Assembly: GCA_022925895.1 (NCBI GenBank)
Contig: JAKSYS010000652.1
Span: 1 to 35,105 of the forward strand
Length of the DNA: 35,105 nt
Origin: Fragilaria crotonensis
Lineage: Eukaryota; Bacillariophyta; Fragilariophyceae; Fragilariales; Fragilariaceae
Direction: 5' to 3'
In this document: in pieces, positions 14,553-34,946 of the stretch
How positions within the stretch are numbered: position 1 is the first letter of the stretch
Layout: every line of letters starts with the position of its first letter
Made by a program: the position numbers and the translations under genes
Notes under the pieces: model-generated
Told to the model about the DNA's origin: nothing
What the model saw: the letters and a program-made list of their open reading frames with translations, nothing else
The model's database searches: none

Positions 14553-17500
14553 TTACAACAACGGCCTACCAGTCTTTCTCACCAAAAGCCAGTACTTGGC
14601 CCACCATCCACTTTCGTCGTAGCTCTTTTCCAGAAACCCAACGTGATAGCCAGGCATAGTTTCTGCAAAAGTTTCGCGACCTTTATGATCCGACAGATCG
14701 GTCACAAAGGCGTTTGTTTCAATCGACATAAACACATTGCCAGCCTGCAGGAGATTAGGTACGACTCCCCAGCCGAAGAAAATGATGACTCCGCCCGGAT
14801 GCAAGACTCCCTGCTCGGCGTCGAACTCCTTGGACGGTATTGAATAGCATGGCGAACCTCCCTCAACAAGCTTCGTTGATTTGATTTGAATATCGAATCC
14901 TGTTCCATTGATTATGCTCGCTACTATACACCGTCGAGAACTCAACCCAGAAAACACTTGACCCCACGAATTAATCAGTGACCAAGCTTCCTCATCCAAG
15001 GTCTTAAAGAACTCCGGGGAATGGCTACCCAATTTCTTGACCCTTGCGAAGCACTGCTCAATCACATCTATCTCGTCCTTGATGCTACTATGTAGCCGCT
15101 TTCGATTGTTGTTGGAACTTCCGAAAACGTGCTTCACTTGCCGGACCTTGATTCCGGGTATGTCGTGCCTGAAAATGTCCTCCAAGCCTGCATGAAGCGA
15201 CTTGTTATCACCCCCTGATACGGCGATTGCCCCATTGCCCATCTTGTTTGCTTGCATTGCTAGCAATTTGTGAAAGAGGGCGAACTGGGCGGAATCGTCT
15301 ACTTCGAAGACAAAGGACCTCAGCCCTGTTTGTCCGAACACAGTGATGCGCATTTTGTCATTGTCTTGCATTCCGAAGTGACTGATCTCCTCCCAGCTTA
15401 CACGCCACGGCTCTCGGTTCCTGTTGTCTAAAGCTAACAGATATCGGTCACTGGCGATAATCAAATGACTGGGTATATAAACATGTCCAATGTAAACGTC
15501 ATCAAGGCTCTCACCCCCGGTCACAATCTGCTGAGCTTTGGCAGCTCGATCGTCATAGGGAGTTATGCGAACATTGAAAGCCTTCTCCTTGCTGGCCCTT
15601 GGCAATGCTCGGCGCAATCGCTTCGGAATCTTAGGTATGATTTGCTTGTCACTCGTCGCATCCGAAACATGATTCATTACGAGGACTGCAGCATCGCCCA
15701 CTCCAACGACTGGTTTCACAATCGCTCCTACGAGTGCTTTGCCAACACCCTTGACGAAACCAAGCGGGCCATGTTTCGATGCATAGTGAGCTGGCTGCTC
15801 CCAGATGCCGTACGCTCCGGACCTGACGCCTCTACCAATGCTTGCACCAGCAAGATAGAGGGAGTCTCTGAAATCGCGATTTGTTTCGCCACGACTCATT
15901 GCATCTGTTAGCATCCGTTGGTGCGCCTTGCGTTCGTCAAGAAACTGGTCGTCCGCAGTGAGACCAGCTAGATTCGAATTTACAACTTCTGTCACGTTCG
16001 CAGCTCCCCGAACTACTCCAACGAAAACTCCTCGTGCAAGGCTTTGAGTGCCAGCCTCCAGTCCTTCAACAAACTGCGCGGGTCCGTGCACCAAACCATT
16101 GATTGGTTCGTAGAAAAAATCTCTGACACCAGTCCCGACGTTCGAAATGAAGTCGGCTGGAGCTCCAAGGATGGCAAGGCTGCCGAGGATGCCAAAGATC
16201 TGCTTCGTCAGCTGCGATGAGTAGTGTGTTCCCACGATTCGAGCCAATGCCTGGGGAGATTCAAAGACATGACCGACCACAAATGATGTGAATTTGAGTG
16301 GAGCATTCGCAATACTTGCCATCCCGCGTATGAATTGAAAAATCATCATTCCTTCCGCGCCTGGCGTCCATTCCATCCACTCTTGCGTAAACGTCAATCC
16401 TATCCTAACGGGATGCAAGTGCAGTTGTTCAATATATATGCGACCCCAATTCGCCGTTGATGCGATTGCGTCGACATCAGACGAAGTGCAGTCATTCCCT
16501 CGCCTATACACTTGCGACATTCTGCTTGTAATATCAACGATCCAATCTTTCGGATCCTGGTGTTGATCTTCCTGCACTTCTCCGAGAGGCTGAATAAAAC
16601 TGGCTATGTTTTCTGCAGTTCGTCGGTCGAGGTAAATTTCAATATCCAAGAGGCGAATGGCAACATACCGAAATGCCAGAGATGTACTTTGCGGTTGCAG
16701 TCGACGTACGGCTGACACGTGCAAAAGGGGTTCTGCGACATCGACCCTGGGACAAAACACAAGCACTGGATGTATGGACCTCTGGACATGGTTGTCCACT
16801 TGAAGTGACATCAAGGTCAACTCCATTTCGTGATAGCCCTCGTAGTTCTGAGCGAACATGAACACAAGACTATCTAACTGAGCTAGCAAAATTTCGCGAC
16901 CGTAGACCGACGATGATCCGTTGTCAATCACGCTGATTGAAATTGTTGGCAGATTGATACGAAGGCTAAAGGACACATTGTCATCATCGTCGATAGCATC
17001 AACACGGTCAGTGGGCGACGGAATACTGGTGCTCAACATTTCTTCATAATGTTTCCCACCCCGACGAAGTGTATTCATATTCTCCTGGTTGAGTGCTCTG
17101 CGACTGTGTCGACTACCCAGCTCAGTAAATTCGACGACCTTCGTTGAGTGCTGAGCTCCAATCTGGCACCGGATTTCGGTGCCGTCATCGAGAGGTAGGA
17201 TACTAAATGATCCCATGGCATCTATTTCGATGAATGCATTCTTCTTACGTTTGTCGAATCGACTAGAATTTCTTGATGCCCCTGTCCACTCAAGAATGTG
17301 AAGTTTCTCTGGATCGTCGAACCCGAAAAATACGTTCTCTCCGGGGCGAACTACCCAGACGAACTCTTCTTTTAGGTCGAAACCAAGAAACGCGCCAATA
17401 ATCTGACCAAAGCCAGATCCGCACTCAAACCCGTGATTGTGAAGGTCCTCCTCTCCGTTGTTGTTGTGCCCAGTGCAACCACCAAGAACTGAGTTGTTCC

Positions 17501-20500
17501 CTTCATCTTCGCCGACGTCGTCGTGCAGAGGTTGTCGACAAAGAATCGTGCGTGACGTGTTGTTGCGCAGAACATACAATGCATTTGACACCTCGTTTGT
17601 TGACCAAATGACCACCACGACCGCCGAAGACTGTTCCTTTGTCGCGAGACGAACTTCTGCCTGGACAACGATGGGGTGGTTCCCCTTGCTCGTCTCCAAC
17701 GGAAGTCTCATCGAGGTTATCCCTATCTTGTCGAGTTGAATGCAGCCGTTTGTCCAAAGGATTTCGCCCTTTGAACCAGAGACCGCTCGTCCTAGCCTGA
17801 TTCTCGGTGGCAAGGATTGTCTTTCCCAATGGAATGGAACACTTGATCGAGGTTGAATGCAAGTTTGAACCTTTTGCCATCCGTCTTGAGCGACGATAAG
17901 ATCCTCGTCCAACAAATTAACAATCTGGTACCTTGGAAATAAAGTGATCAACTTCGTTCTGCTGAATATCGATGGGCAAACGTTCACGCTCACAGCCAAT
18001 TCGAACCTTCGGTAACCATTGTATTCGTCGACAGAGAAAATCGTTTTGGGGATGACATTGGATATGTCCAACGGGGACACCCAACATGATTTTACAGATG
18101 TCTCTTTCTCGGTTCCTCTACCACTTGTTCCACATTCAATTGAGAGGGCGATTTTCTCTTTTCTTGAGAAGTAAAGGGTCATGCCGTCCTTTCCGATCGC
18201 CCATTGAACCCCAGGGCTTAATCTATCCTCTTTCACCATACCTCTGTTCGCCTCCGAGTGGGATCGTCGCGAGGTCTCGGCGTCTGGTGAAGCTCCAAGC
18301 ATGTCACTGAAACTATCGCAGAAACGGCATCCGAAACCTGTCTTATCCAAGATCCAATATTGAGCGTAAACTCGGAGCGTCGGACAATGACCCATCTCGA
18401 CACTTATGATGATGTTCAATGGGTCACCAGCGCCTCGTCTTTCGAAGAATACGATGCTCTTGAACTCATCTGCATAATCTGCATCACTTGAACCAGCATT
18501 CATGTGCCATTCCTCCTCTGTGTCCACAGGCTGCCATGTAAAAGAGCTGGATTTTCCATTGACAATTCTATGCCACGAAGACCAGTGGTAGCTGGGGAGA
18601 CGCAAAGAAATATGCGGCTTCAAACAGGGATTCACACCGACACCCTTTGCTTCGGCGCCAGCTTGAATAGCCAAATGCTCCTTGCAAGATACCTTCCTAC
18701 CTTTAGGCCCAATCACCCGGCGTACATCATCACGGGCATCGTCGTTAACTTCGCCGAGTTCGCACTCGAGCTGACATGGTAGGAGATTTACAATTTTGAG
18801 AACAGGTTCGACTCGTACATCAACAATGCCCTTGACACTCGTAATTTGAATCAAAAGATGAACGCTCCTATCAGTGTCGAGCCCCATGAATACCTCACTG
18901 CCATTAGCCCTTCTCACATTTATGACAGTTCGCACCAAAGCAGATGACGTATTGCCGGTTGGTACAATCATGATGCGCCGACTCATGGACATGTTTTTCT
19001 TCGTCATCGGAGGTTTGTTGGCACTCTTGTCCCTTGGTATTCCAAGCTGAATGAAAGTTGCAGTTGCAAATTGAATTGGGAATGGGAGACTATCACCGGC
19101 GTTCACGATCCCCAATCCAATTTCCTCCCAGGATGGACTCGACACGAACACCGACAGATCGGCTGAGGTGTTGTTATGCAGAGTAACATGGCTCTTCGCC
19201 GTGACAACATAGTTATCGTTGCTGTCGCGCACCGTTTCCCATACAAGAAAGAGCGGTCTCAGCGGGTCTGAAAGGGGTGGCGGTCGAATCGTGCGTGTTC
19301 TTGTCCAACGCCTTCTACGACAGGAATCACCACGTCTATAAAATCGACGTTGGCGATTGAAAGTCTCAAAATCTGCTTCGTATTCCCAACCATCGCAATC
19401 GGTTGTCTCGCCGTACACACCGCTGAGATCGACAGTCCAATCGTTAAGCCAGATCCAATTATTATCGGGGAGCATTACTCGTTCCCGAGCCATTCGAAGA
19501 ATGCATGTCATGTCAGTCCATTCTGGAGAATCATTCTTCAAGTACGGTGTTACCCAGTTACTATGCTGGGATGGTCGAGTTGTCGAAGTCTTCACTTTTT
19601 TTGGTAGACTGTAACTGTCGTTGTCGTCCTCACTATCTGAATGCCCTGTGCCAAGAATATCAACAAAGAGCGACTGATCTGGGTCTGCAATAATCTCATC
19701 GCCTGGCGACCACGTGCGAGACGACAGAAGATCGCGCCCTTTGGATAAACTATAACAGTCAGTTATGCTGGCTCGGAGCCTCTGATTTTGCATGCACCAC
19801 TCGACGACTGGCTCAGCATTGTAATACGCGTATTCCGATTGTGTGACACGTGAGTTTTCGCTGAACACTGTTTCTGGGCTGCATCGACCTGAAAATTGAG
19901 CCAAGACCGTTTCATTTCCGTCATTGGAGGCGGCCGGCAGCAGCCGATGCAGAATGGTCGATCTATCGCCCACCGCTGAAACTGGTAAATCTATGAGAGG
20001 TTCACGTTCTCCAACCTGACCTATTGCTGATTGCGCCAATCGCGCCTTCAACTTTGGTAGGACCCCTGAGAAAAGACCAGAATCTCGCCCTGAAAGGTGA
20101 TTTACGTCAAGTGAGACTTCGCATCCTGCTCCTATTGCAATATCGCCCAAATCCTCAGAGCTGAACCCATGCGCTTTGGGGTCTGAGGGCGAGACTTGCA
20201 TATCGAGACCGGTATAGTTCCTTAATAGTACAGTGTGCCCCTCCGTCGCCCGCCGGAGCCCGATTGTTGTCAAAGTCGTCGGATCAACGTGGACATCACG
20301 AAATGCCGCCCGGGTGTCCACGTCTGATTTGGCCTTCAAAATGGAAAAATCAATCTTAATGTAGTCCTTCAACATGACACTGGTCACATTCGTCGAGATA
20401 GCTTCTGTTGTTGTTACGTTTACAAGCTGCAGAGGAAAGAAATGAGAACGAGCATAGAATTAGGCGCACCGAAGCCTTGACTATCGCTTACCAGCTCGTC

Positions 20501-23500
20501 TGGCATCTGCTCAACTGACACGTCGATATTTACGGGTTCTATTGTGCTTTCCCACTCAGTCAAATCGGCATTGAAATGGTTCACAGAAATCGAAGCGTTG
20601 CATTCACCCGAGAGCGCCGTCATACATCCGTTAAAGCGACCTTTGAACGAGCTGAATCTCACATCGAAAAGCGGCCGTGTCCCTTGCTTTGATCGAAACG
20701 CCTCTAGCAAGACGAAAGAAACGTGCTGAATCTCAAATCGGATGGCTGTTGCAATACCTGCACCTTTCCTTTGGAAACGAACCAACTTAAGTAGGACTCG
20801 ACGTGGTCTCGTTGCCTGAGAACGAACCTCTCCCTCACAATGTGAATTGTTGACAACAAACCGTTGCAGTCTCTGACGAATGCTATCCCCGACACTCTTA
20901 ATGATGAAAGCATCATTCGGGGTCAGGCTCGCTTTCAAGGCTTCACAATCCAAGGAAATATCCTGAGACACAACGCTTCCCAAGTTTTCAGTTCCATATA
21001 CTATCCTGAATTCGGCGGCCGTCGGACCAATCATAGGAGCTACCTTTGGAGACAAGCGGTCGAATTCAGTATTCGCGGACGCAGAAAGGTTATCAACGCT
21101 CGCATGCAACGTTTTGCTACCGCTTCCATCACCATTCTCGACACTTTGGAACATGAAGAGAGCATTCGCAACAACTTGAACAACTGCATATGATTGAGCT
21201 GTTCCAGCTTCATCAGTAGCCTTGCTTTTGTCCGACAACCTTAGTGGCCGACCAGCAAGCAGAGTCATATCGTGGAGTGTGACCTTAAAAAGGATACTGG
21301 AATCCGATGCAGAATTTTGCACCCGATCTGACTCCATATTTGCTGCGGGGTGCTGCCGAACCGAACTGTCCCTTTGGCTTCCATTCGCGTCTACGAGTTC
21401 ATGAGATCGATTGATGGGCAATAATCTATCGTACGATGGAATTTTCTCTTCTTACCGAGCCTTTCAAGTCTTGCTTTTCTTCCTTCTTCGTGCACCTTTC
21501 GCTCAAGTTCCCTTGTGACAACTTGTATCAGTTCCATGACTTTACTGAATCCCTTGGAGCAGTCCTTTAGCGTTATCGGTGTGACTCGGAGAACAATAGA
21601 ATCCATGTCTATCTCAACTTCGTCGAGGTGGAGCAATTTGTCATGAAGGAAGCTGACCGATAGGAAACTGGAAGGGTTGACAGTAGCTGTCATGTCTGTG
21701 ATTTGTCCCTTTTCCAATGCCTGCTGCAAGCTTCCAGAAGGGGACTGCTGGCAAAATGGATCGGCGCCTGAGAGTCGCGATTGTGCGGGTGGCAGCGCAC
21801 CGACCGGTGTACTTGTACCATTGGTTTCTCTCTCAGACGACATATAATCCTTGTCTAGGCGGACAAGAATACAATGAGGTAGATCAGGAATTTGCTGCTC
21901 TGACAGGAGGGGATTGAATCTGCGATCAGCCTTGACACGGATTATTCTGATGTCAGATACTAGGAACTTGTTTCTGGTGATTCCATGTTGACTCAAGCGC
22001 CCGATATTGATGTCGATCAAGTCAACGACGTAAGTCCTAATCCTTGGTTCCGCATACTCTGAGAAAGATGCAAGAGTGCTCACACTCCTCTCGTCATTGG
22101 AAATCCCGTCATCTCTTTTAGAGTGACCTTCCAAAGCCATTTCGAACCGCTCAACGTGAACGGACAAAATGCCAACACCCGACGTTGTAATCTGGACAGC
22201 CCGGAGGAGCGACTCTTCCTTTTCCTTATTGCCAAAGTTGTCATCCCTAGTAGGCACTTCATGCACTGCGTTGGGGTCACGTCGCTTCTTCACCCTTACA
22301 AGGCCACTGGCATACCACTTGCCGATAGCCTTTGCCAGAATCTCGGCGTCGACGAGGTTCAAGCAGATCGGGCTCACAGAAATATCAAGCTTGCGCCACG
22401 GTCCAATGTCAGAGAGAATCGACATGCTATTGAAAGTTGGGTTGTTACAAGGTAGCGCTAGCTCACGTTCAGCAAGGATTGCTTCAACATGGAGCTGCAG
22501 TGGTTGGATTACTGACATCGCGTCCTTATCAGAAATTTTTCCAAAGCGAATGCGACCGTGCTTTGATTGGCGAATGAACATCATTTGGATGTCCCGGGCA
22601 GCCAGGTTCCAAACCGTGTCCGTCCGGAGCTCCTCTTTCGTGATTGACATAATGAATTTTCCGGCATCAAAATACACTGCCCCGTCTGACGTTTCCCCAG
22701 ACACTGGAAACCAAACTTTTGGCGCAGCAATGTTCATCCTAAGATCAAGAGCACTTGGAGACATGAGCGCCAGAAGAGCTTTCCTTGCCAACGGTGTAGC
22801 AACGTTTCTCAGTTGTCTCGTGACTTCAGTTTGCAATTCAACGGACGGACTTGAGAAGAATTCAGCGACCGCATCCATGCAAGGCTTGCTCCATACAAGA
22901 GTCGCTGGATGAGCCGAGATACCGAGTCTGGTCGAATTAGTGTCGTTGGTCGCAGACAATCTGCAAACAACCCCATGGGGAGGGGGCTCCATGTTCGCGT
23001 CAGTTTCAAGGGAAAATGCAGAGTCGACTGTGAGAGATAGGTCGCCTTCGTAATTCATGCGGTGAACTTCCTCGAACATGAGTAGCTTGCCCCGGTCGGA
23101 AATCTGGTGAGGAGTGAAGTTCGCCAATCGATTTTGAGGGTCAATCACTTCGAAGTGAATAACATCAAACACAAAATCGCGGCGCCCAGGCCCGAAGGTG
23201 CGGACCTCTCCAGTTGCACTGAGGTCTAACTCGATGATCGGGTCTTCATACTGGACGAGGACCACCGAAAGGTTCGTCTGATTCAGGTGGAAAGTGTTCA
23301 ACCATTGCTTTCGTCCCATTCGGGCTGCGATTGCGGCGTAGACAGCTCCCTTTGTCAGAGAGCTTGCTGACGATCGGATTGAAGTATCGGGGTCGGCGTC
23401 GATCTCAATCGCAGGCTGCTTTACCTTCTTGCTTCGACGGAAAGGGTTGGTTAGACGAGGTTTGCTCTGGGCACCTACGTCAACCTCCAATTGTTCATTC

Positions 23501-25342
23501 TCAGCCTTATCAAAGAAATCCTTTCCGGCTTCTTTTCGCATAGCATAAACCTCGCGAAGTGCCAACAAATGAAATGTTTGCAACGCTTCGATAGGAAGTA
23601 GATCTTCTAGGCCAAGTAACTCAAAACTTTCCTCGTCCTTCAATCCGCCGTGAAATCCGTTTCCCTCCGAAGATTGGTTTATCTTCTTCTTCACCAACTC
23701 AATGTATCTCGCTCTACTGCGCGCAATCTTGACAACGTCGTCCCATGGACGAGAATGTGGGCTCGTTGTGACGCACGCAATGACATATTTCCACCACATC
23801 CGAGGTTGGGACAATGGGTCTGCTTTTGGTCGCTGACGCAACATGGTGTCAAAGCGTTGCTGGGAATACATAGCGCTTTTCAGCTTGCTGTACTGGACAA
23901 ACTGATTTGGCCTAAAATGAAGTTCCAAATTCAAAGGAAGAACTTCTGCCAGGAGGGTCATAGGCCCTGGCTGATTGCGATCTCCAAGTTGCACAAGGAC
24001 TTGAGCTGAAAGGTTCTTGCAGCAGTAGATGTGAGGGAGATTCGGTCCGTTATCCAGTGCTCCTTTTCGACCAGGGGAAATAGAGTCTGGTCGCATTAAC
24101 GACTGACTAATCCTTTCTCCAGGATGTTGAAAGTGGACCATACCTTCCATCGCTGCAGATATTCGACCCTGTAATCGGTTGGGCGACAAATTATGATCAT
24201 TGGTTGCAAGGACGTAACTCTCAGACAGAAGTAGCGGAGGTTGATCATCCCAATAGAAAGCAGCATTATTAAATTCAGCCAGTTTGTTCTGAACTTCCCC
24301 CGACGACGTCGACAAAAGGCTATTTGATTGACTTTGTTGTCTCGAAGACACTGTCGACGAATCATCACTGACGCAACTCTCCGACCTTACTGGGGCTTGT
24401 CCCTCCTTCGCCGTTCGAACGACGAAGCTCTCTAACGTCAACCCGAACGAAAACGCTCGCTGTTCCGCTGGGGTTCCGTTCTCAGCACCATACTTCTGCT
24501 GAAACTGTCTTTGTCCCGGGTGACTAAAATCGAGACCTCCCTCGGATACTTCGCAGCGAACATGCATATCAACCATGCTCACTTCCAAGTTTCGGAGTAG
24601 TTTCTCTCGTAATTTGACACTCCAGCTGCTCTTTGATGGCATAAAGATACTATCAGGAACCTCAGACGCCGCATCTCCAAAAAAAGAGCTTTCGAGTTCT
24701 GAAAAGGCGTCCTCATCGTCCAAATCTTCATCTTTAAGTCGTTTTGATCTCCATTTGGTTTTTGACTTACGAAGCTGCCGTTCCGCTAGTTTCATTGCGC
24801 CCCGCATACGTCGAGTTGGTGGTCCCTCTCCTGGAATTCGACCATGAAAAAAGTTGCGTTCAAATCTAGCCAAAGCCGACCGTTTTGCCCTGGTTCTCAG
24901 CGAACATCTAGGATCAACTGCAGTTCCAGCTCCGTACCGCCGATGAGCCGTCGACGGCAGCAAGGGAACGCAGAGCAAATGCACGCCCTGAATTTCGATT
25001 CTTGTTGGCAGTTTGTCGAGGTTTTTCAAGGGGACAACGATTTTGACAGACTTTGCCCAGCACGATAAGACGCCAAAGCCTGACAAGCCGACTGCTCCAA
25101 GTACATGGCTACCAATCAGATCTCCGTCAAGTTGCACGTTTTCCAGCTTCACCTTTCCTCTCAAAGCTGCTATTTTCAGGTTTTCTTTCGATATGTTGAG
25201 AACATATTCGCCAACCACATCTTCCATCACTGGATGTCGTCCAAGACGGAAAGAACAGCATTAGTTACATGGGAACGCACGACAGCATTGATCAACCTGA
25301 TGTCGCGTGATACGTACCGGAAATCAACAGTTGCTTTGCCAT
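14553..25342 (-). CDS. VPS13: VPS13 intermembrane lipid-transfer protein, four exons
   Basis: Exons on the minus strand are 25342-25318, 25229-21456, 21390-20492 and 20426-14553. The introns are 88, 65 and 65 bp (GTACGT...CAG, GTAAGA...TAG, GTAAGC...CAG), and all phases fit. The joined frame is 10572 bp, 3523 residues. The N-terminus places VVGEYV at residues 13-18, as in other VPS13 proteins, followed by the chorein domain (LKIAALRGKVKLENVQL). A long lipid-groove region follows. The VPS13 adaptor-binding region lies at about 1980-2600 and contains WILDKTG. The conserved VPS13 C-terminal domain is at about 2900-3130 (LKFTSFVVGHVF, ADFISNVGTGVRDFFYEPI), a PH-like domain at about 3210-3290, and an extra C-terminal domain at about 3400-3523. 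The family moves phospholipids between membranes at contact sites. There is no frame break. The retroelement sits 375 bp upstream. Confidence 0.92.
20427..20491 (-). other. VPS13 intron 3 (65 bp)
   Basis: The donor GTAAGC follows GACGAGCTG and the acceptor is CCTCTGCAG with a pyrimidine-rich tract. The junction falls between codons. Confidence 0.85.
21391..21455 (-). other. VPS13 intron 2 (65 bp)
   Basis: The donor GTAAGA follows ...AGGCTCG and the acceptor is CTCGTAG. The split codon is restored as Asp. The frame from exon 2 would otherwise run into a stop shortly after. Confidence 0.8.
25230..25317 (-). other. VPS13 intron 1 (88 bp)
   Basis: The donor GTACGT starts at 25317 and the acceptor CATCCAG ends at 25230. 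Splicing joins the 25-nt first exon (ATG 25342) to the chorein domain in phase 1. The result places the conserved Gly-x-Tyr-Val at the same residue numbers as in other VPS13 proteins, which is the main argument for this otherwise easily missed exon. Confidence 0.8.
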
Positions 25343-25716
25343 CCTTTTATTGTTTTCTAGAGCAACTGCTGCAACCAAGTTGTATTCATTTCTTGGGGTG
25401 GCACTATGCCTTAAGAAGGACTGTTGCAAGTCGATGAATCCTCGGGTAAGGAGTGAACCATAACGGTGATCGGGATGTATCCACGTTGGTGGAGTCGACA
25501 CGGGACACGGGATGGATTCGATTCGAACGTTATTTGGGAGCAGTTCACTTGTTTAAATGATAGTACAAGTCTTATAGTAGTACCAGGTACTGCTCCCAGC
25601 CACTCGTAGTTTACTGGTAATTGGAGGATGATCGTATGAATCACTCTTGGATATCAGTTTTCCGTTGGACCTTTCTCTTGTTCGATGTCACTTTGCGGAA
25701 CCGTTTGAAGTTTGAA
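25343..25716. other. Presumed VPS13 promoter/5' region up to the retroelement
   Basis: There is no gene. The frame of exon 1 stays open upstream but has no ATG. A TAGTAGTACCAGGTACTG tract lies at 25576-25593. The insertion point of the retroelement (TTTGAA before GCC) closes the region. Confidence 0.45.
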
Positions 25717-26044
25717 GCCGATAGCGGCAGTGTGGACGGGAGGTCCAGTACAGCCTTCGCAGCACTCGAACCCTTGCTGCCCAGTCGAGCATTCCGAGGT
25801 GACGCACTCGTTTGTAATGACCCCGCAATACTACAATTCTACGTGGGATCTCCTCAAAAGAATACGGCAGTTTGAACAGAGTATTATCTACCCTCTTGCT
25901 CCCATTGTTTTGTCGAACCAGGTCAAACGATCAGTAGAGACAGAACAAGACTACCCGCACGACGCATCGACAAGCCTGCCACGCTCCGTCAGGTCCCTCG
26001 ATTCCAGTGTAGGCAAGCTTCGCAAGCGAGTTCAGGTTTTTAAG
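25717..26044 (+). repeat. Split direct repeat A1
   Basis: 328 bp, identical to 31751-32078. It starts at GCCGATAGCGG and ends at TTTTTAAG. It contains an open frame from ATG 25817 that runs into the coding region. Confidence 0.95.
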
Positions 26045-26176
26045 ACCCAGTGTGGCGCAAGTTGCCAGGCGAGACCTCGACAACATGGCCCAACTGAATC
26101 TCCGAGGGGACGCGGGTGTTCGCTTCGACGACCAGCAGCCACCCGAAGTACCACCAAGGGTTCCCGCGATGGTTGA
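25817..26176 (+). CDS. Small frame starting in repeat A, uncertain
   Basis: Starts at ATG 25817 and gives 119 residues. The part inside A1 looks protein-like: MTPQYYNSTWDLLKRIRQFEQ is followed by a Lys/Arg/Ser-rich helical segment. The part beyond A1 is Arg/Pro-rich and less convincing. The same frame starts in A2 (31851) and ends at 32135. It overlaps the next frame (ATG 26085) by 92 bp in the +1 register. It may be a leader or an upstream part of Gag, or chance. Confidence 0.3.
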   Translation: MTPQYYNSTWDLLKRIRQFEQSIIYPLAPIVLSNQVKRSVETEQDYPHDASTSLPRSVRSLDSSVGKLRKRVQVFKTQCGASCQARPRQHGPTESPRGRGCSLRRPAATRSTTKGSRDG

Positions 26177-28335
26177 GCCGGGCGTCGCCCCTATGCCCGG
26201 GGGTGCTGCCGCCCGCACGTATCAAGAGTACTACCGTGAACGGGGGCACATCCCACCACCCGACCGCGTCGGTGGCTACCTTTGCGGGGTATCGCTTTGC
26301 GGACGGGGGTGGAGGCGTGGTACCGACTCCGGCTGGCCTCCGAGATCAGACAGTCACGCTCAGTGACCGTCACCCAATGACCTTTCTATGTCTGGTACCA
26401 GGTACCGACGGTTTCGGTGAGGTCACAATCCTCCATCGCTTCGTCCGATACCTTGATGCTCCCGGGGACGACCCGTCGGGTTACAACGACAAGGTATTAG
26501 GTTTGCTAGGGGACATCCTCCCCCACCAATACCCCGTCGTTGAAATTCCGAATACGGCGTTCCATCTGGTGGGCGCTCCCGTCCGGGTACCCACCATCGG
26601 GGCAATGAATGCCCTAATGGCAACATGGGGGGATCCCTTGACGGCGCTTGGACCGTACACAGACCAGGACCCGGAAACTGAAGTGGTGCGTCCCCGCAAC
26701 CTCCAGTTGGTACCCGCACGCCTCGCCTCCCTAATTGTACACCGGCATCGCGTGCGGGCTAAGCACGCCTACCAAGAACTTGTCGGCGCAATACAGGCCG
26801 AAGGGGCTGTGGAGCCCTATAGCGACGTCATTGTATGGCTCAGAGCTGCTTGTACCGCTCGAGGGGGCGGGGGGGCGCAGAATACTGTCCCCAGTGTAAT
26901 TCAGACCTTCGCACCGTTGCACCTCCCCCCCGACGTCTACGAGTATGTCACAAGCAAGGTAAAGGCCGACCTCCCAGCTTTGGGGCAGCGCGACACACCA
27001 CCGGGTACCACCGACGCACTCATGGGGGCCATCAGAGCCTTATCAGCTCCGCGAGGAGGTGGCAATAACCCGGGCGGGGAAGATGCGGAGCGCGTGGCCC
27101 GGGAACCGAAGAGTGTGGCCGAGGCCTACCGAGAAACCTATCGCACGCTGCTCCGGTTCAGCAATGTGGAGGAGGTGACTCAGCTAGCTCCAGTCTGGCA
27201 ACGCTTAGCTAATTGCCTCAAGAGCGAGCAACACACCGTATTGACTCAAGAATTCCAGAAGGTGTGTATGGCCCGCGGCCTGTCTACCGAATACTACGTC
27301 CCTGTGGTAACGACCGCGCTCAAGCAAATGGTGGTTGGCTTTCAATTCGTCGGCTTTGGGTCGGATGACTTGACCTCGGGCTGCCAGCCTTTCCTGGTGG
27401 CATATGCCGGCCGAGCCAACCACTACCAGGTTTTGGCCGCAGCGGATGTGAGCAACCAGCTGGCCCAGGGGGAGCATGCGGCCAGTTTGACGGATTACAA
27501 AGCCATCAAGGACAAGGAGAAAGTGAAGCTCCCCAAGGATGTGGCGGAGACGTGCATCACCCTATGCCGCTTTGCGGTGTTGTGCCAAACATTGTTTCAG
27601 GGCACGGGCCCCACGCACCCTCTTGTCGATGCCATGTGGACCACCGCGCTGACTCTCCAGAATCATGCCCCGGCCGTCACTGACCGGTACCAAGCACTGG
27701 TAGGCGTTCCCGGGGTGTCCCAAACTTATTATGCTCGAATCGTGCGCGCCGTTCAACTCGGAGTGTACGAGTACCTCCAAGGAGTCGCCACGAACCTCGT
27801 GGACAGTGTGATGGGCGTCGAGAAGCCAAACTTTGCGGTGATGTTGCAGGATCTTAGGCGAGGAACGTTTCACCTATCCACCAATTGGATCCCAATTCCC
27901 CCTGAGTACGTGATGGGCAGCAGCACGCCCCACACTCTGAGTGCCAGCAGTGCCAGCACTGGGAGCCGCAGTGCGGCCGGTGGAGCCTCGGCCATGGGGT
28001 CCGGGGCCTCGGCGAGTAGCACGGCAATGTCGTCGATCACGCTGGACTCACCGCAGCGCGAGAGCGTCACGAGAATCGAGAACCCGGCACCGGACCCCGA
28101 GTTCGCGGCGCTGACATTACGTTCCGGTGGCACCCGCACAATCCTGCGGGCAAACCGGCCCCCGTCTAACGATGCGGGGAACGAGTTTTGCGTTGCCTGG
28201 TGGACACGCAGCGGTTGCTACCCGAATTGCGGGCGCCGCAACACGCATCAGCCGTTTGCTTCCACATCTGAACGCGCACGCCTGATGACGTACGTCCGAC
28301 AGCATCTGGTTGCACCGTCGCAGGCACCCGCTTGA
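26085..28335 (+). CDS. Gag-like protein of the DIRS-type element
   Basis: ATG 26085 has a good context (A at -3, G at +4). It opens a Pro/Gly-rich, protein-like frame that ends at 26366. The long Gag frame (26116-28335) lies in the +1 register, and its own first ATG is only at 26377. Either a one-base indel or +1 frameshifting between 26116 and 26363, or initiation at 26377, is therefore required. The long frame gives about 650-740 residues and is predicted largely helical. It has a Ser/Ala/Gly-rich linker (about 27930-28040) and a C-terminal C-x8-C-x3-C-x5-H zinc-binding motif (28189-28250) typical of nucleic-acid-binding Gag tails. The frame ends with a single TGA at 28333. Confidence 0.7.
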
Positions 28336-28393
28336 CGGGAACGCCAGGGGGAGGTCTTAGCGGGGACACACCAGCTACGACCACCACCCTGGC
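28333..28393 (+). promoter_or_regulatory. Predicted stop-codon readthrough signal (UGA-CGG plus stem-loop)
   Basis: The Gag stop reads TGA CGG. Seven bases after the stop a hairpin begins. GCCAGGG (28343-28349) pairs with CCCTGGC (28387-28393). Two more pairs follow past a bulged A, then GGTC (28353-28356) with GACC (28379-28382), then TAGC (28358-28361) with GCTA (28374-28377), leaving a 12-base loop. This makes 17 base pairs in all. No stop interrupts the same frame between 28336 and the RT ATG. UGA-CGG followed at about 8 nt by a stem-loop is the class II readthrough arrangement known from several plant RNA viruses. Confidence 0.7.
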
Positions 28394-30723
28394 CGCCTGA
28401 CTTCCCAGCACCAGCTCACAGCACTGGTGGTGGGAGGTCAACCAACAAACGCAAGGCAACCGAAATCAGTGAAGCGGAGCACATGCTCGGTAAGTTGGCG
28501 TTGTTTTATGCGACGGAATTGCGCGCGAAAGGTTGGCGAACGCTGGTATCCGAGACAAGAGGGTGCTCCAACATTTCCCCAAAGGTGCAGCAACTACAAC
28601 ACAAGGCAGCCCGACTGCTCAAGCATTTGGGACAACGGGGGGCAAGTGTCACCTTGCACACCCCCCCTTGGTCGGCCGAGCGGAAGCGCACGGCACTCGC
28701 TCGCGGTCCCCACAAGTCGTCACACGGCGAACGCGCGTTCGTTTGCGAGGAGATTCTCGACTTTTGCCGCCAAGGATATTGGCTGGTCCTACCACAAGAC
28801 GTCGTGATCGGATGGCCACACCTCCGGGTCTCACCCCTGGGGGTGGTGCCCCAACGGGACCGGCGACCCAGGCTCATCGTCGACTACTCGTTTTCAGACG
28901 TCAACGCCGAAACCGTGCCACTGGCGCCCAATGAAGCCATGCAATTCGGCCGCGCGTTACAGCGCGTCTTCACCACCATTGTCCATGCCAATCGCCGGTA
29001 TGGACCAGTCTATCTATCTAAAATAGACATAGCCGATGGTTTCTATCGTGTATGGCTACAAATAGCCGACATTCCAAAGCTCGGAGTTGCCTTGCCCATC
29101 GCTCCTGGAGCAGTCCCGTTGGTGGCATTCCCATTGGCCCTACCGATGGGTTGGGTTTTGTCACCGCCGTATTTCACGGCCCTGACTGAAACTGCTTGCG
29201 ACCTCGCCAACGCGGCGATCCGATCGCGCCCTCCGTCTGCTCGACTCAAGCAGGTTCATCGGCTGGAGGCAGTGGCGAACACACCTCCCGCCGATGCTGT
29301 CATCGAACGTGATACAGCGCCCTTGCAGGTAGGGGAACCCCTCCCGGGGACCCGACTCACACCGGTGGCGTCCGTCGATGTTTATGTGGACGACTTCCTT
29401 CTCATGGCGCAAACACGCGCGCAGCAACACAAAGTGCTACGCTCCGCCCTGACCGCCATTGACGATGTCTTTCGACCACTGGAGGCGGGGGACCCTGCCC
29501 ATCGCAAGGAACCAGCATCCGTCAAGAAAATGCTCAAGGGCGACTCCCAGTGGTCGACCTGGAAACGTATTCTTGGCTGGGATATCGACACGGTGTCGGA
29601 GACACTCCACCTGCCCCCGCATCGGGTCGCACGCCTCCGCGAAGTCCTGACATGGCTTCAACCGCCCCGAAAGCGCCTTCCTCGCAAACAATGGCACCAG
29701 CTTCTCGGCGAGCTCCGGTCCATGGCCCCAGCACTCCCGGGCACTCGCGGTCTGTTCTCGGTTCTGCAACATGCGCTCAGTCAGGGCGATCACCATCGTG
29801 TACGCCTGAACCGGCACGTCTACGGCATTGCAAAGGATTTCGCGACCCTCGTCGATGCCGTTGCTAGCAGACCAACACGTCTTCGGGAACTTGTCCCTAC
29901 GGCCCCCTCCGATATCGGGGCGTGTGACGCGTGCCAGCACGGCATGGGTGGCGTTTGGTTCGACGCGCTCGACCCCACCGCACCCCCTATCCTATGGCGC
30001 TCGCGGTTCCCGCAACATATCCGTTCGGCCCTTGTTACCGCTGACAATCCATCCGGCCTTGTGTCGATCTCAGACCTGGAACTCACCGGCGTGATTGCAC
30101 ACGCGGACGTACTTGCACGGCACCGTGACATCACCGAGCGTACGATTTGGTTAGCCAGTGACAACACCGCCGCCGTGGCCTGGTCCAACAAAGGCTCTGC
30201 CACTTCTCTTACCGCCCGGGCCCATCTGCTTCGGTTCAAAGCCTTGCACCAACGCGCATATCGTTACGTCGATCGCACACATTACCTGCCCGGCCCTGTC
30301 AATGTCATGGCCGATGATGCCAGTCGCTTGTGGCTGCTCTCCGATGCGGAACTCCTCACCCACTTTAACGTCACATATCCGCAGGCGACCTCCTGGCAAA
30401 TGCTGCACCTCTCGTCCGTGACCAATGCTATGCTGACTGGTGCACTCTCACGGACTCCGCAGCTGGGCGCGGCTCTGCTCAACGCAGCGCCACTGCTGCC
30501 ACCTCATGGGCGCTCTGGCAGACCTTCTGCACCAGTGTCGGCATCGATGCCCTCCGCCTGGCTGCCCGCGATCCAATCCCCCTTCTCCAACTGTTCGCCC
30601 ACCGCTACCGCTCGGGCACCGTTGCGCCCGGCCGTCGACCTGTCCGAGCTCGCACGGTGGAGGACGCCATACGAGCGGTGGGCCAGGCGTACACCGGGAT
30701 GGGGGCCCCTGACCCTCGTTTGA
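28336..30723 (+). CDS. Reverse transcriptase / RNase H of the DIRS-type element
   Basis: The frame continues directly from Gag after the TGA; the first ATG is at 28483, giving 746 residues. RT motifs (ATG numbering, approximate): RLIVDYS near 130, KIDIADGF (180-187, first catalytic Asp), LPMGWVLSPPYF (220-231) and VDVYVDD (298-304, YVDD box). RNase H motifs follow: ACDACQHGMGG (about 485), SDLELTG (about 540) and ASDNTAAV (about 565), which give the Asp-Glu-Asp catalytic set. This RT-RH type is the one found in DIRS elements. The last 80 or so residues overlap the recombinase frame and are low in complexity, so the functional protein probably ends or shifts frame before 30500. There is no protease and no methyltransferase. 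Confidence 0.92.
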   Translation, partial: RERQGEVLAGTHQLRPPPWPPDFPAPAHSTGGGRSTNKRKATEISEAEHMLGKLALFYATELRAKGWRTLVSETRGCSNISPKVQQLQHKAARLLKHLGQRGASVTLHTPPWSAERKRTALARGPHKSSHGERAFVCEEILDFCRQGYWLVLPQDVVIGWPHLRVSPLGVVPQRDRRPRLIVDYSFSDVNAETVPLAPNEAMQFGRALQRVFTTIVHANRRYGPVYLSKIDIADGFYRVWLQIADIPKLGVALPIAPGAVPLVAFPLALPMGWVLSPPYFTALTETACDLANAAIRSRPPSARLKQVHRLEAVANTPPADAVIERDTAPLQVGEPLPGTRLTPVASVDVYVDDFLLMAQTRAQQHKVLRSALTAIDDVFRPLEAGDPAHRKEPASVKKMLKGDSQWSTWKRILGWDIDTVSETLHLPPHRVARLREVLTWLQPPRKRLPRKQWHQLLGELRSMAPALPGTRGLFSVLQHALSQGDHHRVRLNRHVYGIAKDFATLVDAVASRPTRLRELVPTAPSDIGACDACQHGMGGVWFDALDPTAPPILWRSRFPQHIRSALVTADNPSGLVSISDLELTGVIAHADVLARHRDITERTIWLASDNTAAVAWSNKGSATSLTARAHLLRFKALHQRAYRYVDRTHYLPGPVNVMADDASRLWLLSDAELLTHFNVTYPQATSWQMLHLSSVTNAMLTGALSRTPQLGAALLNAAPLLPPHGRSGRPSAPVSASMPSAWLPAIQSPFSNCSPTATARAPLRPAVDLSELARWRTPYERWARRTPGWGPLTLV

Positions 30724-31514
30724 ATTCTCACGGACACCTCGACTTCCGCCTGGCATCCATGTACCGCGCATGGCAGCGAGATGACGACCCGCCTACTCGT
30801 GTCAAACCCCTCCCTTTGTCCCTCGTCGCTCAGGTATGTCACCTCGCCTCCTTGGAGAATTCCCCCCGCGCGGCGGCAGCTGCCTCTTGTCTGGTCATCG
30901 GCTTCTTCTTCCTCTTGCGCCCGGGCGAATACCTGGGCACGCCTCGCCAAACCCATTTTGTGCTGGGGGCCGTCCGGTTCTGGATCGGCTCTCGCGCGCT
31001 TGATCACACTACATGTCCAGGTGGGGACATTCTGGCCGCTACCTTCGTTACCCTCACCTTCAATCGCCAAAAGAATGGGGTGCGTAACGAAACCGTCGGC
31101 CACGGCCGTTCCGGCCATGCCCATCTCTGTCCCGTGCACGCACTCGGCCAACGCGTTCTCGCCCTCCGTCGTCAAGGGGCTGCACATGACACTCCCCTCA
31201 ACGCCTTCCGCCCGGACGTGAACTCCAGCTGGACATTTATCCTTCCTTCTGACCTCACTACCCGCCTCCGCGCTGCCTTGGCCCTGCACCCCGATCCCGC
31301 CTTCACGGTTTCCGACGTCTCCATACGTTCCACTCGTGCGGGTGGTGCCATGGCCCTCCTCTGCGCCGGCGTCGACGCCGACCGCATCCGCTTACTGGGT
31401 CGCTGGCGGTCAGACGAAATGTACCGCTATCTTCACGTCCAGGCACAGCCCGTCATGACCGGCCTTGCCGCCGCCATGCTGCGCGGCGGCTCCTTCCGGC
31501 TCACGCCACATTAA
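30369..31514 (+). CDS. Tyrosine recombinase of the DIRS-type element
   Basis: The frame is open from 30369, after a TAA at 30366, and lies in the -1 register relative to RT. Its first ATG-type start is internal, and 30657 begins with GTG. The stretch upstream of 30657 (WALWQTFCTSVGIDALRLAA, then LLQLFAHRYRSG) is the typical SAM-like N-terminal core-binding domain of these recombinases. The protein must therefore begin upstream, most simply by frameshift from RT. The catalytic domain has FFFLLRPGEYL (first Arg), IRSTRAGGAMALLCAGVD (second box, Arg where His is usual), LLGRWRSDEMYRYLH (GRW motif, then the Tyr nucleophile). It mediates integration of the circular DNA copy. It ends at TAA 31512, 46 bp before B1. 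Confidence 0.88.
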   Translation, partial: RHISAGDLLANAAPLVRDQCYADWCTLTDSAAGRGSAQRSATAATSWALWQTFCTSVGIDALRLAARDPIPLLQLFAHRYRSGTVAPGRRPVRARTVEDAIRAVGQAYTGMGAPDPRLNSHGHLDFRLASMYRAWQRDDDPPTRVKPLPLSLVAQVCHLASLENSPRAAAAASCLVIGFFFLLRPGEYLGTPRQTHFVLGAVRFWIGSRALDHTTCPGGDILAATFVTLTFNRQKNGVRNETVGHGRSGHAHLCPVHALGQRVLALRRQGAAHDTPLNAFRPDVNSSWTFILPSDLTTRLRAALALHPDPAFTVSDVSIRSTRAGGAMALLCAGVDADRIRLLGRWRSDEMYRYLHVQAQPVMTGLAAAMLRGGSFRLTPH

Positions 31515-31560
31515 CCCACCCACGCTCTCGCTCCCTCCCATCTCGCCTCTGGCCTCTGGG

Positions 31561-31753
31561 CCGCATGGTACAGCAAGCAAGCTACTGTACAAAGGAGATG
31601 TAGGGTATGGTAACTCCTAGTAGGATGTCACAAACCCCCATCAACTAATCACTGTAGCAGTAGCCAGGCCAGTAACCATAGCACCGCCTGGAACAACCAC
31701 ACCGGACCGTAGCGTCGAACAGCCGCTGGGGCGGGAGAGCTACGAATCCCGCC
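31561..31753 (+). repeat. Split direct repeat B1
   Basis: 193 bp, identical to 32093-32285. It starts CCGCATGGTACAGC and ends ACGAATCCCGCC. The last three bases (GCC) are also the first three of A2. Confidence 0.95.
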
Positions 31754-32078
31754 GATAGCGGCAGTGTGGACGGGAGGTCCAGTACAGCCTTCGCAGCACT
31801 CGAACCCTTGCTGCCCAGTCGAGCATTCCGAGGTGACGCACTCGTTTGTAATGACCCCGCAATACTACAATTCTACGTGGGATCTCCTCAAAAGAATACG
31901 GCAGTTTGAACAGAGTATTATCTACCCTCTTGCTCCCATTGTTTTGTCGAACCAGGTCAAACGATCAGTAGAGACAGAACAAGACTACCCGCACGACGCA
32001 TCGACAAGCCTGCCACGCTCCGTCAGGTCCCTCGATTCCAGTGTAGGCAAGCTTCGCAAGCGAGTTCAGGTTTTTAAG
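31751..32078 (+). repeat. Split direct repeat A2
   Basis: 328 bp, identical to A1. It joins B1 directly through the shared GCC at 31751-31753. After it comes a 14-base C-rich spacer before B2. Confidence 0.95.
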
Positions 32079-32092
32079 CCCGCCCGCCCACT

Positions 32093-32285
32093 CCGCATGG
32101 TACAGCAAGCAAGCTACTGTACAAAGGAGATGTAGGGTATGGTAACTCCTAGTAGGATGTCACAAACCCCCATCAACTAATCACTGTAGCAGTAGCCAGG
32201 CCAGTAACCATAGCACCGCCTGGAACAACCACACCGGACCGTAGCGTCGAACAGCCGCTGGGGCGGGAGAGCTACGAATCCCGCC
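32093..32285 (+). repeat. Split direct repeat B2
   Basis: 193 bp, identical to B1. It ends the element at GCC (32283-32285), followed by host sequence ACAGAAGAAG. Confidence 0.95.
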
Positions 32286-33802
32286 ACAGAAGAAGTACAG
32301 TCGAATGTAGTAGTACAATACACCCGTACTCTACTAGTAGTATAGTATCAATTGGCTTGCAGTATACTGGTGACCAGTGACCAGTGACCGATGGTCACTG
32401 GGCTTGGGGCTTGAGGAAGGAAGGCCAATGGCCAACAATGAAAGATGAGTACAATAAGACAAACAAGCACCGCGAACTCTACGTATACCTGACTAAATAT
32501 TTCTTGACAATAATATATAGGAATGTTTGCAAATGATTATGCATCTCACATGCATTACAAATTATAAGGCATGTATTTTTAGGCCCACCATCCTAGTCAT
32601 GACAATTGGGAACCCACACAACTGAACAACTGTCAAGTTTTGTTGAGCTTCCAGAGATTACAAATCAAAACTGATGCGCAATTTGGAACCTGGGACAAAG
32701 GATGGGGACACCAGGAAGTCCAATGAGACGTTCCACGAACGGGAGCTTAGTTGCTTGTAAAGAAGATCTGCTGGTGGTGGTGGGCAAAATCGCATGTTTA
32801 GCTAGTAGCTAGCTAGATGCATGTTCTTGTTGAAGGATTAAGTCTCTATCCTACTACTATTGTAGTAGATTATCAACCACGCACATACAAGCATGATGCT
32901 GCCTGCCATAGTACTGATTGAGAAGCCCATCAGCTCCTCCCACATCCCTTACCGTAATGATGGAGAAGATCCAATTTCCTTTCCTCAGGGTCATGATCTG
33001 ACATTCCAGTTATGATTTGTAGTGGAGGATGATGGGGTGAGCCCTGTTGATGAAAGTGATAATAATAAGTCTTTGCCCTACAAGAAGAAGCCATGCTGCT
33101 GACTTGCTTTGTGATGGATCTGGTCCGTTCACGATCGGAACCTACTAGAATACATCCAATGCTCAAGATATTCAGCCAACCAGGTCAAGAGTCTCCTTGC
33201 GTGCTGCATCCTCCCGACAAGAACTGCAGTTTTGCAGATGATGTGCACTAGAAGTGCTGGGGATGACTTTTCCAATTCTCAAAATTCATCTATTGCTTCT
33301 TGCAATGAATTCAAACCTCCATTGGCTGGGACATAATAGCTACTCCAGTATTATTCTCCTAAAAATTTCATACCATGGCACAGTGAAGTTTGGTCAGCTT
33401 TCAGTATGGGCAGTTAGCATACGGTAGGAGTAGTAGGGATATTCTTCAACTTGCGAAAACTGTACTGCTGGAGCTCTAGAACAAAGCGTCTGCACTCTGC
33501 ACCCTTCATTCGATAATTCATCACTTTCAAATGTATTGTAGTAGTCAGGTTGTTGGAGTGAAGCTGCCCTCACAAGTTCATTGGTTCAAGCATTGGACAC
33601 GATAGCAGTAACCCAAGGAATCGGAGCTCAAGCCATCGAGCTGGGAACAACGATAGCCGTGACGTAGAAATCAGTATACAGTAGTAATGTAATGCGATTC
33701 CCCTAATGTACAACCACGTACCAGTACCGTGGTTCCAATACAAATTACACAGTAAAATACAGCATTATTAAAAAAAAAAAATCTGTAGAATTTGTATAAT
33801 GA
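32286..33802. other. Gene-poor region between two mobile elements
   Basis: No convincing gene is present. Visible features are GTAC/TAGTAG-rich sequence at 32290-32345, a 9-bp-arm palindrome (CCAGTGACC/GGTCACTGG, 32381-32401) preceded by tandem GTGACCA units, CTAGTAGCTAGCTAG near 32798-32815, and a homopolymer A run at 33771-33781. The rest is AT-rich and featureless. Confidence 0.45.
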
Positions 33803-33889
33803 GGCCCATCCTTATCGAGAGACAAAACTGGTCTGCAAAACTGACCCCCAACTTTTTTTTTCAACTTTGTCCACTCCCCGTCCTTATCG
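33803..33889 (+). repeat. Left terminal inverted repeat
   Basis: Imperfect inverted match to 34871-34946 over roughly 80 bases, with small indels in the T-run and near the tip. Confidence 0.75.
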
Positions 33890-34870: not shown

Positions 34871-34946
34871 CGATAAGGACGGACGATCCGGAAAAAAAGT
34901 TGGGGGGTCAGTTTTGCAGACCAGTTGTCTCTCGATGAGATGGGCC
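34871..34946 (-). repeat. Right terminal inverted repeat
   Basis: Inverted counterpart of the left repeat; it ends in GATGGGCC followed by TGA. Confidence 0.75.

Follow-up and report, generated by a model that had tools for sequence, protein, structure and literature searches.

How is reverse transcriptase (RT) translated in a retrotransposon whose gag ends in one UGA, with RT following in the same frame? The question is raised by an element in a 35,105-nt stretch of DNA (the window) from the freshwater diatom Fragilaria crotonensis, which has a genome of ~62 Mb. An initial annotation of the window had proposed that the stop codon and a stem-loop behind it form a readthrough signal. Every DNA comparison described here was made within this one genome, and statements drawn from published work refer to the parts of each source that were covered.

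The element and its reading frames

The element has both of its ends. Its main features are:

25717..32285, + strand: tyrosine-recombinase (YR) retrotransposon, A1-[gag, RT/RNase H, YR]-B1A2B2, 6569 nt, delimited by exact repeat extents and ORFs
25717..26044, + strand: split direct repeat A1, 328 nt, 100% identical to A2
26085..28335, + strand: gag, with ATG at 26085 and open frame 26116-28335; homologues P0122, P0123 and P0128
28336..30723, + strand: RT/RNase H frame, in the gag frame, stop at 30721-30723; Pfam RVT_1 at E 7.1e-5, below the cut-off
30369..31514, + strand: ORF of the tyrosine recombinase, -1 relative to RT; predicted fold matches Cre; first ATG at codon 111
31561..31753, + strand: split direct repeat B1, 193 nt, overlapping A2 by the 3-nt core GCC
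31751..32078, + strand: split direct repeat A2, 328 nt, 100% identical to A1
32093..32285, + strand: split direct repeat B2, 193 nt, 100% identical to B1

The GCC core common to B1 and A2 also starts A1 and closes B2. The order A1-[ORFs]-B1A2B2 is that of Ngaro elements (PMC8547959), and by these split direct repeats the element is of the Ngaro/PAT type. The earlier label was DIRS-type; a DIRS1-like identity, with inverted terminal repeats and internal complementary regions, is ruled out by the direct orientation of the end repeats. Split direct repeats, gag, RT and tyrosine recombinase are all shared with Ngaro and PAT elements (PMC8547959, PMC4157794, PMC3783388, PMC3266345). Ngaro elements, as described in the part covered, are usually free of ORF overlaps (PMC3266345), whereas RT and YR overlap in the diatom family. 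A methyltransferase domain, which serves to tell Ngaro from PAT, was not matched by Pfam up to E 10. The complete identity of A1 with A2 and of B1 with B2 suggests that the element inserted recently. Beside it lie two long ORFs (14553-25230, - strand) that match the N-terminal and adaptor-binding domains of VPS13 and represent one or more host genes. Elsewhere in the window, a 42-nt inverted repeat (33819-33860 / 34892-34933, 88% complementary, ~1 kb apart) could mark the ends of a DNA transposon.

The gag product has a Cys/His-rich stretch at its C-terminus. Its start codon, placed at 26085 by comparison with homologues, is in another frame than the open Gag frame, with the change from one to the other at about 26260-26285; this copy thus has a frameshifted gag, either broken near its start or affected by an assembly indel. 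In 86 of 120 listed clusters of Gag proteins the pattern recognised a tail, and every one of these ends 0-17 residues past it; this count is at the protein level, and the other 34 clusters were dropped from it. Past the single TGA of gag, the same frame is open from 28336 to 30720 (795 codons), as had been annotated. Several of the listed RT homologues carry PF00078, and the RNase H part of the window frame is presumed from its motif.

For the frame at 30369-31514, Pfam gave no match. Its AlphaFold model (mean pLDDT 83.7) is confident in fold from about residue 11, and each of the 32 PDB matches with E of at most 0.001 is Cre or a Cre derivative, although TM-scores over the whole chain are low (0.29-0.37 by query). 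The model points to a tyrosine recombinase. This frame overlaps RT by about 352 nt (30369-30720) in the window; the -1 relation recurs in 19 of the 29 loci listed, and in 9 of 13 loci examined the recombinase frame has no ATG before codon 110. No slippery heptamer was found near the overlap in 9 of 13 loci, and none is common to the family. One or two such heptamers each are present in L051, L054, L057 and L068, with CCCGGG at seemingly the same place only in L054 and L057. Three NCBI models appear to put a short intron at the RT-YR junction. The overlap is possibly the site of a second recoding or splicing event.

The junction of Gag and RT in the window and across the genome

Three features make up the junction in the window:

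28333..28335, + strand: Gag UGA stop, next codon CGG; read through in the proposed mechanism
28336..28342, + strand: 7-nt spacer from UGA to the stem
28343..28393, + strand: proposed readthrough-stimulating hairpin, 19 pairs in the predicted fold, with covariation among copies

The annotated succession of TGA-CGG, a 7-nt gap and a stem-loop was confirmed to the base. The stem-loop had been described as 17 pairs, which is what the arms given at the time hold; in the predicted fold there are 19, with the 5' arm at 28343-28364, the loop at 28365-28370 and the 3' arm at 28371-28393. The predicted folding energy of 28330-28400 is -38.1 kcal/mol, whereas 200 dinucleotide-preserving shuffles give -23.7 +/- 3.0 (z -4.81; 0/200 as low). 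The full minimum-free-energy structure also pairs the spacer's CGGG, which is a point against the readthrough reading.

This layout resembles type II readthrough signals, in which UGA-CGG or UGA-CUA is followed by an extended stem-loop about 8 nt downstream, UGAC being a leaky context (PMC3542737). Here the stem begins at the eighth nucleotide after the stop. The initial annotation had likened the junction to plant RNA viruses; the match of layout stands, and its range is wider, since UGA-CGG/CUA with a stem-loop is common to signals of alphavirus, tobravirus, pecluvirus, furovirus, pomovirus and coltivirus (PMC3542737).

When the genome was searched at the DNA level with 27900-28600, 17 places were returned. 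With a search by RT protein, which is blind to the signal, 68 matches were obtained, and 30 loci were cut out for the best ones. The sequence TGAC-N6-GCCAGG, which comprises UGA-C, a spacer of the same length and the start of the 5' arm, is present in 29 of these 30 loci, in 29 distinct 100-nt contexts, a figure independent of the motif. The longer pattern TGAC-N6-GCCAGG-N10..40-CCTGGC is matched at 46 places of the genome, a reversed-pattern control at 0. Together these two counts rule out chance or the decay of a single copy, in line with the earlier judgement that chance co-occurrence was unlikely, and they extend the UGA-C and hairpin layout to other copies.

For a closer comparison, 40 distinct junctions (distinct by 100-nt context) were gathered from loci L001-L077 with the pattern TGA-N7-GCCAGG; the TGA, the 7-nt spacer and GCCAGG are imposed by this search, and the base after TGA is free. 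That base is C in 40/40 junctions. The next codon is CGG in 28 and CUA in one, the other 11 having CUG, CUC, CGA, CGU, CGC or CCG. Some copies thus depart from the CGG/CUA of type II viruses. The codon before UGA is ACC, GCC, GCT or ACT in 38/40, in contrast to the AA dinucleotide said to favour many viral cases (PMC3542737), and this weighs against the readthrough reading.

In 33 of the 40 junctions a single frame runs through gag, the UGA and RT, and in 32 of them no other stop intervenes. Directly past the UGA, 17 of 26 RT loci (L048-L073) have at least 735 open codons. The common frame seen in the window thus extends to most copies; the remaining junctions and the L061 subfamily depart from it. 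Eight junctions are out of frame, truncated or interrupted by a stop ahead of RT (L005, L015, L017, L020, L021, L036, L045 and L047); they look like decayed copies, were kept in the counts and count against the readthrough reading. A further point against it is L061, an RT locus whose open frame is long but which lacks the signal, and in which gag and RT are in different frames. The gag stop of this locus is UGA-CAU (L061:1280-1380), with a hairpin of unrelated sequence following at similar spacing (z only -2.32). A place on C499, 94% identical to L061, belongs to the same diverged subfamily. In the single locus L061, the gag frame past the stop encodes APTVGATR, a peptide also present in RT protein P0024, and this hints at an indel of later date.

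Between copies, synonymous RT sites are near saturation (mean pS 0.73-0.81 for codons 30-300 in 16 of the 17 open copies), and despite this UGA-C and the lower stem are retained. Related-locus searches found no relatives of the element in viral contigs or in prokaryotic/genome contigs; a pattern scan of viral contigs gave at least 120 stretches, and 120 of these were taken as chance matches, because tblastn gave no gag/RT relative in them.

The structure of the hairpin and the start of RT

The 46 places comprise 38 distinct hairpins, and we define their interior as the part beyond the six pairs that the search required. Interiors fold at a mean z of -2.13 (mononucleotide shuffles), with 32/38 below -1. 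Numbered from the hairpin base without bulges, pairs 7, 8, 11 and 12 form above permutation (P up to 0.005) and pairs 10 and 14 weakly so; the upper pairs 9 and 13 have no excess over permutation in the 38 hairpins. In two gapless sets of 8 and 10 sequences, 13 and 22 cells carry changes in both partners of a pair; neither these counts nor the covariation scores are reached by any of 500 shuffles. Pairs changed on both sides number 5 and 9, values reached by 111/500 and 96/500 shuffles. When the longer gapless set is slid by +1 and by +3, its covariation scores are 0.163 and 0.201, close to the 0.220 obtained in register. The interiors do covary, as the annotation's proposal would have it, though not uniformly across pairs.

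Relatedness of the sequences can inflate covariation counts, and we therefore regard length variation that preserves the frame as the stronger point. The interiors range from 15 to 39 nt, and 35 of the 38 are a multiple of three in length; the three others belong to L036, L047 and L017, each out of frame. The folding signal is also confined in place. In 54-nt windows at the 32 in-frame junctions, mean z is -4.03 at +10 past UGA, with 30/32 below -2 (mononucleotide shuffles), and -2.0 to -3.2 at -10 to +5, where the windows overlap the hairpin. The remaining windows between -300 and +390 have mean z values of -0.91 to +0.91.

The outer stem, GCCAGG/CCTGGC, recurs in sequence and not in pairing alone, both arms having been imposed by the search pattern. 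Recurrence beyond the needs of pairing would suit a hairpin that serves mainly as an RNA packaging, dimerisation or regulatory element, with its place by the Gag stop secondary. We find this scarcely credible, because the 7-nt distance to UGA is kept in 29/30 RT loci although Gag homology ends 0-42 nt before the stop. In addition, the arms encode residues that are near-invariant (Q4, P17, P18 and W19 after UGA), which may explain why the arm sequence is conserved.

Could RT be made separately, by internal initiation or reinitiation past the Gag stop, with the hairpin only helping? The window has an in-frame ATG at 28483, where NCBI model MHU86_23050 (P0001) begins and which the annotation had named as the start that would overturn its proposal, and an ATG lies 21-36 nt from the UGA in 5/40 junctions. 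A comparison of AUG codons makes such a start very unlikely. Across the 32 in-frame junctions without other stop, the distance from the UGA to the first in-frame AUG is anywhere from 21 to 489 nt. Six of 17 open copies have this AUG at the equivalent of window codon 140, inside conserved RT sequence: codons 50-139 of those six copies have a pN/pS of 0.48 (core 0.25), and starting at codon 140 would drop the conserved HKAARLL and RGA stretches. With the ATG at 28483 unconserved, and the first AUG of these six copies inside conserved RT, 28483 is not the start used by the family, and it was rejected. Separate synthesis also needs no common frame, yet such a frame is kept in 33/40 junctions and in the multiples of three of 35/38 interiors. 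The frame downstream of UGA is coding (pN/pS below 1), and its codons 30-49 are weakly constrained (pN/pS 0.65), as expected of a linker, though this also weighs against the readthrough reading; L059 was left out of the pN/pS averages.

An intron spliced out across the UGA would likewise join Gag to RT, with no readthrough. NCBI models P0001, P0020 and P0045 leave the RT frame early and continue in the recombinase frame, which we read as a predicted RT-YR intron, and a GT is available within 45 nt upstream of UGA in 30/32 in-frame junctions. The last 15 nt before UGA, however, are free of GT in 22 of the 32, and splicing would leave the invariant UGA-C, the fixed 7-nt spacer and the frame-keeping hairpin unexplained; an intron here is highly improbable.

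A UGA with a downstream hairpin also resembles bacterial SECIS or eukaryotic redefinition elements, so that insertion of selenocysteine has to be weighed. Rfam, searched up to E 10 over 25600-32400, gave no SECIS match; a SECIS unlike the Rfam models would escape this search. The selenocysteine would also sit in the variable linker, behind ACC, GCC, GCT or ACT in 38/40 junctions, and we give this alternative a negligible chance. Reassignment of UGA in the genome seems unlikely as well, since the 16 best RT rows and the window Gag frame hold no other in-frame stop.

Proposed readthrough and its relation to known systems

We propose, with a probability of roughly 90%, that 28333-28393 acts as a signal for programmed readthrough of the stop codon and thereby fixes how much Gag is made relative to Gag-RT. 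At the level of sequence this reading is carried by the layout, its conservation, the covariation, the preserved frame and the missing RT start; the occurrence and rate of readthrough, the amino acid inserted and a role in packaging are what we infer from them. At the UGA of gag, translation would end for most ribosomes, which would let go of Gag. The hairpin, starting after a 7-nt spacer, would meet the ribosome with UGA in the A site, and the leaky UGA-C context together with the stable hairpin would allow a near-cognate tRNA to decode the UGA in a minority of ribosomes. Without a change of frame, these would pass the unwound hairpin and translate RT/RNase H, and the resulting Gag-RT fusion would bring RT into Gag particles. 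Protease is reported to be absent from tyrosine-recombinase retrotransposons (PMC3783388, in the part covered), and the fusion may therefore stay uncut.

As in several type II viruses, in which the polymerase is an in-frame extension (PMC3542737), RT here follows the stop in frame. Unlike those viruses, the carrier is a nuclear retrotransposon of a diatom, the GCCAGG/CCTGGC stem is recurrent and the readthrough function is a proposed one. Gammaretroviral type III signals also have a Gag stop read through for RT and an 8-nt spacer to the structure; they differ in using UAG-G and a compact pseudoknot (PMC3542737). A signal of this type, with UAG followed by G or a purine, is ruled out by the UGA-C of the window and the junctions.

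Among retrotransposons, expression of gag-pol at an in-frame UGA has already been described for LTR elements of fission yeast (PMC10085805). The Ty3/Gypsy elements Tj1, Tosmo1-3 and Tcry1 have an in-frame UGA between gag and pol, as here, followed by CTA or CTG, as in 4/40 of our junctions. They differ in being LTR elements with integrase and protease, and a strictly conserved 8-nt context, rather than an extended hairpin, is described for them (PMC10085805). Candida Tca2 likewise combines gag-UGA-pol with a predicted downstream RNA structure, in this case an LTR element with a pseudoknot (PMC2194720). The Tca2 gag UGA and downstream pseudoknot were insufficient for readthrough in S. cerevisiae (PMC2194720), which counts against our reading.

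The annotation had regarded the layout as undescribed for DIRS/Ngaro elements. In agreement with this, we found no report of readthrough in DIRS-order elements, judged by title and abstract among the matches listed from the open-access literature, which leaves absence from print unproven. In the covered parts of six publications on the order (PMC6681497, PMC8547959, PMC3783388, PMC3266345, PMC4157794, PMC9210276), the word 'readthrough' is absent, and other wordings were partly covered.

We speculate further, with more doubt than confidence, that an entire clade of tyrosine-recombinase retrotransposons of diatoms, devoid of protease, might express every one of its enzymes through recoding, with a single start codon. 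The particle would be built from fusions left uncut, Gag-RT and Gag-RT-YR, which would arise through UGA readthrough and a second event between RT and YR, either a -1 shift that dispenses with a classical heptamer or a short intron.

Because dozens of diverged natural variants are present in one genome, the contributions of pairing, spacing and context are directly testable. The junction also carries a warning for annotation, in that gene models ending at such UGAs split one polyprotein into two genes. How RT is linked to Gag has been little studied in DIRS-order elements, reported to be devoid of protease and DDE integrase, in the literature covered. Readthrough at this junction would widen the range of the type II mechanism beyond RNA viruses, to a retroelement in the chromosomes of a stramenopile.
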